Source of the DNA: Cyanobacteria bacterium SIG29
Lineage (GTDB): Bacteria; Cyanobacteriota; Vampirovibrionia; Gastranaerophilales; Gastranaerophilaceae
Assembly (NCBI GenBank): GCA_015152515.1
Contig: SUTV01000003.1
Span: forward strand, 124,001 to 188,000
DNA: 64,000 bases
Direction: 5' to 3'
In this document: positions 10,084 through 14,491 of the stretch, piece by piece
Layout: the number at the start of each line of letters is the position of its first letter
How positions within the stretch are numbered: the first letter of the stretch is position 1
Notes under the pieces: generated by a model
Told to the model about the DNA's origin: nothing
Databases searched by the model: none
Seen by the model: the letters and a program-made list of their open reading frames with translations, nothing else
Position numbers and translations under genes: made by a program

Positions 10084-10428
10084 ATGGCGTTTACACACGG
10101 AAGTCTTGAAAGTGAAATTCTTAATGCTGTTTGGAACATGGAAGAAAACGGCTTAAATCCAATAGATATTTCTGTTAGCGAAGTATTGGCTGAAATAAAT
10201 AATACAGGAAACATCCGCGCATATACTACAGTTAAAACTGTAATGGATAGATTAGTTGATAAAAATTTATTAGAAAGACAAAAAAGCGGAAAAAAATTCT
10301 GCTATAAATCTGTTGAATCAAGAGAAAAAATGGCTACAACTGCTATTAATAAATTAGCAAATCAATTCTTTAATAACGATATTCGTTCTTTAATGAGAGC
10401 GCTTGAAAAACAATGCACAAACGTATAA
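10084..10428 (+). CDS. BlaI/MecI/CopY-family winged-helix repressor
   Basis: 114 residues with the family layout: an N-terminal winged helix-turn-helix (LESEILNAVW, then the recognition-helix region YTTVKTVMDRLVDKNLLERQKSGKKFCY) and a short C-terminal dimerisation helix. Members repress beta-lactamase or metal-export operons and are inactivated by cleavage from a BlaR1/MecR1 sensor protease. No BlaR1-like M56 peptidase is in this window. A strong GGAAGGG ribosome site is present. The downstream gene overlaps by 16 bases, so the two are probably translated together. The target genes could be this operon or the hydrolase genes that follow. Confidence 0.85.
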   Translation: MAFTHGSLESEILNAVWNMEENGLNPIDISVSEVLAEINNTGNIRAYTTVKTVMDRLVDKNLLERQKSGKKFCYKSVESREKMATTAINKLANQFFNNDIRSLMRALEKQCTNV

Positions 10429-10793
10429 AACAAGAATATAGTGAATTAAGAAAACAAGTTGCCGATATTTTTATTGCAGTTTTAACAGAAAAGTTGTGCG
10501 TTCGTGATGCTTTAGCGACTTTTCCAAAAGACTGTGAAGACAAAACTATTATTGCAGCTTGGCATGCGCTATGCCATTTAGAAGCAGACGAAGACCTTAG
10601 AAATAAGGATACAATGTATAAGCAAGAACAAGATGAATACATTGAATTTATTGCTTTTACTCTTCAAAAAGGTGAAGAATTACCAACAAATATAATAAAT
10701 GCTTATCTACCTTATCATAATGAAGCTCTAATTTCGCCAAGCAAAAGTTTTAAGGGGATTATCAAAAAATTAAAACGATTTTTATGTTGCTAA
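10413..10793 (+). CDS. Uncharacterised helical protein coupled to BlaI-like repressor
   Basis: 126 residues, not recognised. It overlaps the repressor gene by 16 bases and is in the same operon. The composition suggests an alpha-helical soluble protein. The C-terminus is basic and ends KKLKRFLCC, two terminal cysteines that could be lipidated, bind metal or form disulfides; this is speculation. There is no signal peptide. Its position suggests an effector or co-regulator of the BlaI-like protein. Confidence 0.6.
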   Translation: MHKRIKQEYSELRKQVADIFIAVLTEKLCVRDALATFPKDCEDKTIIAAWHALCHLEADEDLRNKDTMYKQEQDEYIEFIAFTLQKGEELPTNIINAYLPYHNEALISPSKSFKGIIKKLKRFLCC

Positions 10794-10864
10794 ACCACAT
10801 TGTTTAGTGTATTCCTTTTCTCTTTTAATTTTGTTAAAATTCAAATATAAAAAGGGAGAAGAAT

Positions 10865-11542
10865 ATGAGAAAACTAACTTATATTGGGCATAGTGCTTTT
10901 TTTATCGAAAAAGACTGGGATGGAATTTTAATAGACCCTTTTATTTCGGGGAATCCTACAGCAAATTTTGACTACAAAAAGAAAAGAATTTCTCATATAT
11001 TTGTAACTCACGCACACCATGACCATTTAGGTGATGCCATTGAAATTTCAAAAAACACAGGGGCAATAATTGTAGCATCATTCGAATTAGCAAATTATTG
11101 TATTAGCAAAGGCGCAAAAGCTATTGGAATTAACGCTGGAGCACACTTAAATTTCAAGTGGGGAAGTGTTCGAGCACTAAACGCAAGTCATTCTAGTTCT
11201 AACCCTGATTTAGCCTATGGTGGCGCTTGCCTAAGTTATTTATTTGATATTGATGGAACAACAATATATCATGCCGGCGATACTTCTTTAATTCCTGATT
11301 TTTCATTAATTGGTGAACTATACAACCCATATTATGCGCTTTTACCTATTGGTGGAATTTATACAATGGGTATGGAAGAAGCTGCTATTGCAGCAAAAAT
11401 GTTATATTCAATGGAAGTTATTCCAATGCACTATAACACCTTCCCACCAATAAAAGTTGATGTTCAAAAATTTGTAGATTTATTGGAAGCACAGGGGCAA
11501 AAATGCCTACCATTAAAAGCAAACGAATATGTTGAGTTATGA
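10865..11542 (+). CDS. UPF0173-type metal-dependent hydrolase (MBL fold), copy 1
   Basis: 225 residues. Metallo-beta-lactamase fold with H49-A-H51-H-D53-H54 metal motif, HAGDT at 136-140 and PMHYNT at 187-192, matching the UPF0173/YtkL-type metal-dependent hydrolases. The substrate is unknown. A strong AAGGGAGAAG site precedes the ATG. The protein differs from the copy at 11829-12506 at about 19 of 225 positions by my count. Its 3' end overlaps the remnant DUF3326 reading frame by 14 bases, mirroring the overlap seen at the intact second copy. Confidence 0.92.
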   Translation: MRKLTYIGHSAFFIEKDWDGILIDPFISGNPTANFDYKKKRISHIFVTHAHHDHLGDAIEISKNTGAIIVASFELANYCISKGAKAIGINAGAHLNFKWGSVRALNASHSSSNPDLAYGGACLSYLFDIDGTTIYHAGDTSLIPDFSLIGELYNPYYALLPIGGIYTMGMEEAAIAAKMLYSMEVIPMHYNTFPPIKVDVQKFVDLLEAQGQKCLPLKANEYVEL

Positions 11543-11627
11543 AATAACAAAAAACATATTAAAGAAGAATGATATAATAGAATTAGATACATACAAAGAA
11601 GCTTACAATTACCTAAAGGAAATATAA
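11529..11627 (+). pseudogene. Internally deleted DUF3326 remnant, still an open 32-codon frame
   Basis: The ATG overlaps the end of hydrolase copy 1, as in the intact copy. The frame reads MLSYE and then continues ITKNILKKNDIIELDTYK..., corresponding to the first few and the last ~28 residues of the DUF3326 protein encoded at 12487-13488. About 900 bases have been lost between them without breaking the frame. The stop codon lies directly against the next ATG (TAA then ATG at 11628). It could be a dead remnant, or a retained leader that couples translation to the chimeric gene. Confidence 0.8.
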
Positions 11628-12506
11628 ATGTTTAAAAATAAAACTGGTTTTACCCTTACAGAAGTACTTGTAACTCTAGCTATTGTTGGGGTAATAATAG
11701 CCATTTCAATACTAACAATAAGAATAGTGAAAACTTCACATAGTTCATCATCCTATTTTGAATTTAAAAACATTCCAAAAATTGCCGCAGAAATGATTGC
11801 GGGGAAAGATATAAAAATGAAAAAAAATATGGGAAGATTAACTTATATTGGACATAGTGCTTTTTTTATAGAAAAAGATGGGGAAGGAATTTTAATAGAC
11901 CCTTTTATTTCTGGAAATCCTGTTGCCAATTTTGATTATAAAAATAAAAGAATTTCTCATATATTTGTAACTCACGCACACCATGACCATTTAGGTGATG
12001 CCATTGAAATATCTAAAAATACAGGAGCAATAATTGTAGCTTCTTTTGAATTAGCAAATTATTGTATAGAAAAAGGTGCAAAAGCAATTGGTGTAAACGC
12101 TGGTGCACATTTGAATTTTAATTGGGGCAGTGTTCGAGCACTAAACGCAAGTCATTCTAGTTCAAACCCTGATTTAGCCTATGGTGGTGCTTGTCTAAGT
12201 TATTTATTTGATATTGATGGAACAACAATATATCATGCCGGCGATACTGGTTTAATTCCTGATTTTTCATTAATTGGGGAAATATATAATCCTTATTATG
12301 CAATACTACCTATTGGGGGAATCTATACAATGGGTATAGAAGAAGCAGCAATAGCTGCAAAAATGTTATACGCAACAGAAGTTATTCCAATGCACTATAA
12401 CACCTTCCCACCAATAAAAGTTGATATTACAAAATTTGTAAATCTATTGAAAGCACAAGGTCAAAAATGCTTACCATTAAAGGCAAATGAATATGTTGAG
12501 TTATGA
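11628..12506 (+). CDS. Chimera: type IV prepilin N-terminus fused to MBL-fold hydrolase (copy 2)
   Basis: 292 residues. Residues 1-60 are a prepilin start: a short basic leader, the G7|FTLTE cleavage site with Glu at +5, and a hydrophobic helix to about 34. They match the beginning of the intact pseudopilin at 13481. A short linker follows, and from M68 comes a complete UPF0173-type hydrolase with the same HAHHDH and HAGDT motifs as copy 1. If translated as one protein, the hydrolase would be membrane anchored with its catalytic domain outside the cytoplasm. Internal ATGs at 11817 and 11829 could give a free hydrolase, but no Shine-Dalgarno sequence precedes them, whereas copy 1 has a strong one. 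Confidence 0.8.
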   Translation: MFKNKTGFTLTEVLVTLAIVGVIIAISILTIRIVKTSHSSSSYFEFKNIPKIAAEMIAGKDIKMKKNMGRLTYIGHSAFFIEKDGEGILIDPFISGNPVANFDYKNKRISHIFVTHAHHDHLGDAIEISKNTGAIIVASFELANYCIEKGAKAIGVNAGAHLNFNWGSVRALNASHSSSNPDLAYGGACLSYLFDIDGTTIYHAGDTGLIPDFSLIGEIYNPYYAILPIGGIYTMGIEEAAIAAKMLYATEVIPMHYNTFPPIKVDITKFVNLLKAQGQKCLPLKANEYVEL

Positions 12507-13488
12507 TAAAACAAAACCATTAATTGCGTTTATCGTTCCAACAGGAATTGGCGCAAGCATTGGCGGATACGCAGGTGATGCTTCAACATATGCTAGAAAA
12601 TTCACAAAAGATTTTAACGTAATAGTTAACCCTAATGTAGTAAATGCTGCTTGTTTTTCTGGAATAAGCGAAAATATGCTTTATACAGAAGGATGGTCTC
12701 TTTCTCAATTCATAAAAGGAAATATCTATCTAATTCCATCTAAAAATAATAAAATTGGAATTATTTTTGACAAAGGAATTTCTCAAGGCATTTTAAATGT
12801 TCACTTTAATACAATAAACGCTGTAAAAACAGTATATGGAATAGAAATAGAAGCATACGAAATCACAGAAGAACCTTGCGAAGTAAAATTTTATAACACT
12901 GAAAGTGGAATTTCATCTGGTAGCGTATTAAACAACGAAACTCTTTTAAAAGCTGGGAAAAAACTTTTAGAAAAAGGAGTAAATGTTATTGCCGTTGTAT
13001 GCAAATTTGACGAACCACCAGAAGATAATTATAAAGATGGCGAAGGTGTGGATATTGTTGGCGGTGTTGAAGCTGTTATTTCCCATTATTTAGCAAGAGA
13101 ACTCCAAGTGCCAGTTGTTCACGCACCAGCTTTTGAAAATATAACTATCACAAAAGACTTAGTAGATGAAAAAGCAGCAGCCGAATATATTACACCAACT
13201 TTTTTACCTTGCTTACTAATAGCACTTAAAAATGCACCGTTATTTTCTACTAAAAAAGTGGAAGAGTATATTAATAGAAACGATTTAAAAGCGATTTTAT
13301 TACCATATAATGCACTAGGTTCATCAATTGTATCTGATGCAATAAAAAATAATATCAAAGTCCTTGCTATAAAAGAGAATTCATCTATTTTAAAAATAAC
13401 AAAAGATATATTAAATAAAAATGATATAATAGAATTAAATACATACAAAGAAGCATACAACTATTTAAAGGAAACAATGAATGTTTAA
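12487..13488 (+). CDS. DUF3326 family protein
   Basis: 333 residues. The N-terminal PTGIGASIGGYAGD (residues 18-31) and an overall alpha/beta pattern match DUF3326, a family I know mainly from cyanobacteria; biochemical function is unknown. Overlaps: 20 bases with the upstream hydrolase and 8 bases (ATGTTTAA) with the downstream pseudopilin, so the three genes are tightly coupled. Other notable stretches are DEPPEDNYKDGEGVDIVGG and LPYNALGSS, possible nucleotide- or sugar-binding loops (inference only). There are no membrane segments. Confidence 0.8.
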   Translation: MNMLSYDKTKPLIAFIVPTGIGASIGGYAGDASTYARKFTKDFNVIVNPNVVNAACFSGISENMLYTEGWSLSQFIKGNIYLIPSKNNKIGIIFDKGISQGILNVHFNTINAVKTVYGIEIEAYEITEEPCEVKFYNTESGISSGSVLNNETLLKAGKKLLEKGVNVIAVVCKFDEPPEDNYKDGEGVDIVGGVEAVISHYLARELQVPVVHAPAFENITITKDLVDEKAAAEYITPTFLPCLLIALKNAPLFSTKKVEEYINRNDLKAILLPYNALGSSIVSDAIKNNIKVLAIKENSSILKITKDILNKNDIIELNTYKEAYNYLKETMNV

Positions 13489-14491
13489 AAATAAAACTGG
13501 TTTTACTCTTGCAGAAGTACTTATAACTTTAACTGTAGTTGGGGTAATAATGGCTATTTCTGTACAAACTATAAGAATAGTAAAAGCCTCATATAGCTCA
13601 TTGGCTTATTTTGAATATAAAAACATTCAAAGAATCGCAGCAGAAATGATTGCAGGCAAACTACCTACAAATATCACTGTAAATGGTAGTTATATTCAAC
13701 CTCCATCAGAACTTGGATTATTAATGAATGGAAAAGGTTATGCAGCAATGCTTACGAAAAACGATACTCTTTTTTGTAGATATCTTGTAAGTTTAGCAAA
13801 CGTATCTGGTCCAGATAACTGTGATAACCAATTTACAGCAGAATTTAATAATACAACTAATGAACCTGAGATAAAAGACCTTAATGTTGATGCTCCAACA
13901 TTCATAACAACAAGTGGAAGAAGATATTACATTTCAGGAAGAACAACACACACAAAAGTTTCTGATATTTTTGGATATAGACTTATTGCTGTTGATTTAA
14001 ATGGCAATCAAAAACCAAACATAGCACAAAGAAAAAATAACTCAGATAGAAGAATTCCAGATATTGTAACCTTCTTATTATTAGATTCTGGAGATATCTT
14101 CCCATTAAGTCATGCAGCAGATAATACTGAAATGCCAGATGGAAGAATGGTTGTATATTTAAATTCCAAAATCAAAGGTTATTATTTTGCAAACATAAAT
14201 AGACCTGATGATAAAAAAGCTGTTGAATGTACAAAATTAAGAAATGAAGACGGCGAGCCTGCTTGTAATTTTTCAGTAGTTTATGTTCAAAATAAACATG
14301 ATGGAAAAGGACTTTCTTTCTATAGTTATAGGAAAGCATATTGTTCTGCACTAGGGGAAAAAGAATCTCTATACAAAACATACTGCGATGGAATTGGACA
14401 AGATTCACTGTGTCCACCTTCTTCAGATCCAAAACAATTTGACCTTTGCCGTGTAGAAAATATCAAACCAGCATTTAGATATAATTTCTAA
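13481..14491 (+). CDS. Type IV pilin-like protein / pseudopilin
   Basis: 336 residues. Prepilin leader MFKNKTG|FTLAE with Glu +5 and a hydrophobic helix of about 25 residues, the class III signal cut and N-methylated by a PilD-type peptidase. The rest is a large exported domain with paired cysteines (for example FCRYL...DNCDN and YCDGIGQDSLC), likely disulfides. It is longer than classical pilins (about 150 residues) and lacks the usual compact pilin C-terminus, so it is probably a minor pilin, a type II secretion pseudopilin or a lineage-specific surface protein. Its ATG overlaps the DUF3326 stop. Confidence 0.85.
   Translation: MFKNKTGFTLAEVLITLTVVGVIMAISVQTIRIVKASYSSLAYFEYKNIQRIAAEMIAGKLPTNITVNGSYIQPPSELGLLMNGKGYAAMLTKNDTLFCRYLVSLANVSGPDNCDNQFTAEFNNTTNEPEIKDLNVDAPTFITTSGRRYYISGRTTHTKVSDIFGYRLIAVDLNGNQKPNIAQRKNNSDRRIPDIVTFLLLDSGDIFPLSHAADNTEMPDGRMVVYLNSKIKGYYFANINRPDDKKAVECTKLRNEDGEPACNFSVVYVQNKHDGKGLSFYSYRKAYCSALGEKESLYKTYCDGIGQDSLCPPSSDPKQFDLCRVENIKPAFRYNF

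Follow-up and report, generated by a model that had tools for sequence, protein, structure and literature searches.

A prepilin N-terminus joined in frame to a UPF0173 hydrolase at a tandem-duplication junction in a Gastranaerophilales genome

Modular pilins carry functional domains grafted onto a pilin module, and the main text of PMC8179133 counts more than 1,200 such proteins in 264 architectures, with PilB of Streptococcus sanguinis as one example; that main text does not mention lactamase-fold domains. In the genome of Cyanobacteria bacterium SIG29, a single reading frame joins the beginning of a prepilin to a hydrolase of the metallo-beta-lactamase fold, and our literature search found no paper describing a prepilin-UPF0173 fusion. 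Is this gene the passive scar of a rearrangement, or has it been kept as a working, exported protein? We addressed the question in a window of 64 kb (the whole stretch of DNA analysed) lying inside a 190 kb contig. The MAG comprises 1.54 Mb in 13 contigs, with 82.5% completeness and 3.8% contamination, and the organism, a gut bacterium, belongs to Candidatus Gastranaerophilales, a non-photosynthetic relative of Cyanobacteria. The fusion is known from this one MAG, the single genome available for its species.

The features of the locus are collected in Table 1. An earlier note, made from the letters of the sequence, had proposed that residues 1-60 copy the start of the neighbouring pilin including its cleavage site, that a full UPF0173 hydrolase with intact motifs follows, and that the frame is kept across the junction. 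All three claims hold. Over the first 60 residues, 46 are identical to the pilin at 13481 (77%, E 6e-23), the codons differing by 14 non-synonymous and 11 synonymous changes. A class III prepilin signal is present, with matches to PF07963 (N_methyl, residues 3-27, E 1e-6, 28.5 bits against a cutoff of 21.2) and TIGR02532 (residues 6-26, 27.5 bits, cutoff 16.3). The hydrolase domain is full-length, matching NF001911/PRK00685 at residues 70-291 of 292 (251.3 bits, cutoff 144), and the seven ligands of its binuclear metal site (H116, H118, D120, H121, H176, D206 and H256), which are invariant in 27 aligned sequences, are intact. The unfused hydrolase at 10865 matches residues 59-292 at 90% identity, and the two hydrolase copies are 90-92% identical.

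In an AF2 model computed from a hydrolase-only alignment (A3), a helix at residues 10-36, of low confidence, lies separate from the core and is followed by a flexible linker, and the hydrolase core is mostly above pLDDT 90. The modelled core is closest to 3x2z, with a TM-score of 0.94 (normalised to the target) and 39% identity. Judged by its sequence, the UPF0173 half is typical of its family: like the UPF0173/PRK00685 hydrolases of solved structure (TM_1162, 3x2z; Igni18, 6hrg; and 7e3w), it has the whole domain, the metal ligands and the fold. Unlike the fusion, those solved proteins and 35 aligned relatives in the genus start at the hydrolase and have no prepilin anchor. Compared with the prepilin-like protein of the same operon, the fusion shares the first 60 residues, whereas the hydrolase replaces that protein's 276-residue body.

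Table 1. Features of the fusion locus, in window coordinates.
Feature	Position	Strand	Remarks
Conserved -10-like element TTTGTTAAAAT before copy 1	10830..10840	+	in 34/35 relatives
Shine-Dalgarno (SD) of copy 1, GGGAG	10854..10858	+	
Hydrolase copy 1, unfused, canonical	10865..11542	+	
32-codon remnant of the copy-1 DUF3326 gene after in-frame internal deletion	11529..11627	+	overlaps copy-1 stop, ends beside fusion ATG
SD of the fusion start, AAAGGA	11615..11620	+	identical to that before the pilin at 13481
Fusion ORF, prepilin N-terminus plus UPF0173 metallo-beta-lactamase-fold hydrolase	11628..12506	+	292 aa, ATG start, no internal stop
Pilin-derived part: leader MFKNKTG/FTLTE (7 residues, predicted cleavage site at the slash), membrane helix ~10-36, amphipathic helix 46-57	11628..11807	+	direct repeat of 13481-13660; PF07963; AF2 helices
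Junction/linker DIKMKKN, from the former hydrolase 5' leader	11808..11828	+	former SD GGGAGAAG changed to TGAAAAAA
Hydrolase copy 2 (fused)	11829..12506	+	metal ligands all intact
DUF3326 gene, intact copy (PF11805)	12487..13488	+	
Full-length large prepilin-like protein, donor homologue of the anchor	13481..14491	+	

Across the genus, the hydrolase-DUF3326-pilin operon is present in single copy. The genus-wide gene order (10084-14491 in the window; L066-L086 in relatives) runs from a repressor of the BlaI/MecI-CopY type through an unknown 126-aa protein to the UPF0173 hydrolase, DUF3326 and the large prepilin-like protein, and the order hydrolase-DUF3326-prepilin also occurs in the more distant L091. 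In the papers we found, UPF0173, DUF3326 and a pilin are not described as functionally linked.

In SIG29, there are two tandem copies of the stretch from the hydrolase leader (position -20) to pilin codon 60, and the fusion lies exactly where they meet. The earlier note had considered that the fusion might be the breakpoint of a tandem duplication, and this is borne out by the coincidence of the repeat ends with the junction and by a tree that pairs the hydrolase copies as sisters with 100% bootstrap, beside the nearest species, G031. By our reading, copy 1 lost most of its DUF3326 gene after the duplication, through an in-frame deletion between copy 1 and the fusion that had previously been missed. 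The 26 C-terminal codons of the DUF3326 remnant are strongly constrained (omega 0.04), which would mean either that the deletion is very recent or that the short ORF serves translational coupling. The constraint is best read as marking a recent deletion, with some of the signal predating the present arrangement. The position of the remnant likely provides translational coupling into the fusion ATG, preserving the chain of coupled starts.

A search of related genomes, as the earlier note had advised, found the fusion unique to SIG29 among 41 genomes of the genus, and the same fusion was also absent among the matches listed from 383 genomes of the order. In L091 (query 8-288), what looked like an N-terminal extension is an open frame that lacks a class III motif, and the hydrolase there has a normal SD-ATG; this case was set aside. 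Between the two hydrolase copies of SIG29, identical tracts at codons 40-60, 101-111, 123-149 and 184-199 are clustered (P 0.001). In the tracts around the active-site motifs (window 10865-12503), 1 of 75 codons differs and there are almost no synonymous differences, a pattern that suggests gene conversion; we do not take it as established, because the species pair L008-L015 clusters equally strongly.

How might such a gene be expressed? The -10-like TTTGNTANAAT element is kept by copy 1 and by 34 of 35 relatives and is gone before hydrolase copy 2. Likewise, the hydrolase SD is retained in 35/35 relatives and lost at the copy-2 ATG 11829, where GGGAGAAG has become TGAAAAAA; the 20-nt leaders of copies 2 and 1 differ at 4 positions, every one a G of the SD. 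That the internal ATGs are without the ribosome site of copy 1, as noted earlier, therefore stands for 11829, whose SD is erased, and needs qualifying for 11817, which keeps a GGGG ~12 nt upstream at poor SD spacing. The fusion ATG 11628 is preceded by AAAGGA at a spacing of ~7 nt. A sigma-70 scan found promoter-like sites no more often than in shuffled sequences (27 versus 28.8), and the case for a promoter is therefore based on how widely the element is conserved among species. A conserved GTATTCC box lies ~20-30 nt upstream of the -10-like element (10805-10840 in the window; relatives have it ahead of the hydrolase), and could be a -35 element or an operator for the repressor encoded by the BlaI-like gene.

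Selection on the two halves was estimated with a codon model that assumes equal time on the two sister copies. An unconstrained branch model of the pilin part was rejected, as synonymous sites of the outgroup are saturated and changes cannot be polarised; the test of the pilin segment thus depends on the equal-time assumption and is powerless without it. Under this model, hydrolase copy 2 has an omega of 0.09 (0.05 when the identical tracts are removed), with omega=1 rejected at p ~1e-17 or less; the dN/dS comparison of the hydrolase copies that the earlier note had called for thus reveals strong purifying selection on copy 2. Having lost its own promoter element and SD, a hydrolase dependent on those signals should have ceased to be expressed and then decayed, and a low omega is seen instead. 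Also under the equal-time model, the fused pilin segment has an omega of 0.19-0.21, and omega=1 is rejected at p 5e-4 to 9e-4; the true pilin has an omega of 0.04-0.06 and the background 0.03. On these estimates, the fused segment is relaxed ~3- to 5-fold relative to the intact pilin, yet still read as protein.

What has been kept and what has changed in this segment can be followed residue by residue. G7, F8, T9 and E12 are retained together with the membrane helix, whose hydrophobicity (KD 2.96) exceeds that of all 32 orthologues (2.27-2.84). Beyond the helix, the fusion carries Y38H and L41S at residues kept in 32/32 and 31/32 pilins, respectively, which fits the expectation for an anchor freed from pilin packing. 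Among residues that bear on filament incorporation, E12 (mature E5) is kept and the pilin-invariant Y38 and L41 are lost. In a neutral simulation starting from the pilin, an uninterrupted frame, the motif and the helix all survive in ~5e-4 of runs (t=1).

Our preferred explanation, to which we give a probability of roughly 0.57, is that tandem duplication of the hydrolase-DUF3326-pilin operon made one gene that would be driven by the copy-1 promoter and started at ATG 11628, and whose product would be a membrane-anchored, outward-facing hydrolase, with copy 1 remaining cytoplasmic. The observed structure, origin, sequence constraint and lost independent signals support it; the start of translation and the topology, cleavage, location and substrate of the product are what we infer. 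Processing by PilD and display outside the membrane, which the earlier note proposed for a start at the first ATG, are part of this predicted route. The duplication would have placed the leader of hydrolase copy 2 directly after pilin codon 60. Transcription would come from the promoter before copy 1, and translation would begin at ATG 11628 by means of the SD AAAGGA. The class III prepilin signal and helix would then insert N-in/C-out, as in prepilins, and prepilin peptidase would probably cleave after G7. The hydrolase would fold outside the membrane, tethered to the outer surface of the inner membrane or, perhaps, carried by a type IV filament, and copy 1 would retain its cytoplasmic job.

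The machinery for such a route is partly present in the assembly. The MAG contains PilB/T-like and PilC-like genes (type IV pilus motor and platform), and no prepilin peptidase was found in it at 82.5% completeness. The enzyme is present in 37/40 genomes of the genus, and the block recA-peptidase-sigma of G031 is missing from the MAG as a whole. A true loss of the peptidase is unproven, as the adjacent recA and sigma genes are missing too; because of this, and because 37 of 40 congeners carry the enzyme, a gap in the assembly is likelier than a loss.

Could the hybrid instead be an evolutionary by-product? The fusion would then be recent, arising either from two full copies that had long diverged or from unequal recombination involving a diverged allele; its low omega would be a legacy of the time before it formed, and the hybrid would be transient and unused. 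We consider this unlikely, although several observations agree with it: the fusion is unique to one genome, the DUF3326 remnant is still constrained, so that at least one deletion is recent, and an omega of ~0.2 in the pilin part would fit a segment that evolved neutrally for ~14% of the time and as a pilin for the remainder. The purifying signal could partly predate the fusion. Nevertheless, extra events are needed, whereas a single tandem duplication yields the fusion at once. With only ~10-14% of the divergence following the fusion, ~1 change is expected in the 20-nt leader and four SD substitutions are seen, which is improbable (P 0.01-0.03, from a small sample and in an AT-rich genome where Gs mutate fast). 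Furthermore, the hydrophobicity of the membrane helix has increased instead of decaying, and hydrolase copy 2 is constrained without signals of its own.

That last constraint would equally be expected if copy 2, strongly selected by itself, served as another cytoplasmic hydrolase whose translation began at ATG 11817 or ATG 11829, or through reinitiation, with the pilin part untranslated or irrelevant. Both ATGs are in frame and 11817 has its GGGG ~12 nt before it; we regard an internal start as improbable all the same, given that the SD at 11829 has been erased where every one of 35 relatives keeps it, that a good SD precedes 11628, and that codon-level constraint on the pilin part needs translation in that frame. 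An assembly artefact, in which divergent alleles of two strains were mis-joined, is very improbable. The contamination of the MAG (3.8%) and the difference of ~11% between the copies would be compatible with it, but it needs two independent non-homologous joints, the fusion and the DUF3326 deletion, both keeping the frame within a 190 kb contig, and then SD-directed substitutions after the joint. In addition, the copies are sisters to each other, and neither is nearer to another species.

Weighed together, the data suggest that the fusion is more than a passive scar and that the hybrid has been maintained as a functional protein, probably an exported one. The suggestion in the earlier note that frame retention makes a functional chimera possible is strengthened by purifying selection on both halves, by the disappearance of the promoter element and SD that belonged to the hydrolase itself, and by the retained anchor. 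A fuller version, which we advance tentatively and at somewhat short of even odds, is that a one-step duplication gave a cytoplasmic metallo-hydrolase the prepilin alpha-1 helix encoded by its operon partner and so made it an exported enzyme, anchored in the membrane or to a pilus, and that the anchor has since been selected, the internal start removed and the packing residues relaxed.

Like modular pilins as described in the main text of PMC8179133, the fusion has an N-terminal class III signal and alpha-1 helix and a C-terminal, unrelated functional domain that is expected to face outward. Modular pilins as described there have an alpha-1 helix and a globular beta-sheet before the graft, whereas 60 pilin residues precede the junction here, an alpha-1 segment with no beta-sheet module. 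It also differs from them in that the graft is a metallo-hydrolase of cytoplasmic type and that the tandem-duplication origin is still visible. We therefore place the fusion, provisionally, as a variant of the modular pilin, outside the tested members.

Although modular pilins are common, the events that create them can seldom be seen. In SIG29, the donor, the recipient, the unfused copy and the breakpoint all lie within 4 kb, and nearly every congener shows the pre-fusion state of the operon. With the fusion, it would be possible to ask cleanly whether export and cleavage need more of a pilin than its alpha-1 segment. If the protein is exported, one duplication would have relocated an enzyme in a single step. 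Igni18, a UPF0173 protein, is a metal-dependent promiscuous hydrolase whose activity changes with the metal supplied (PMC7846560). We speculate that, upon export, the change of compartment would alter the metal met by a promiscuous UPF0173 enzyme and could change its activity. If the fuller version is true, the locus would be a natural example, its history still legible, of the birth of modular pilins or anchored enzymes.
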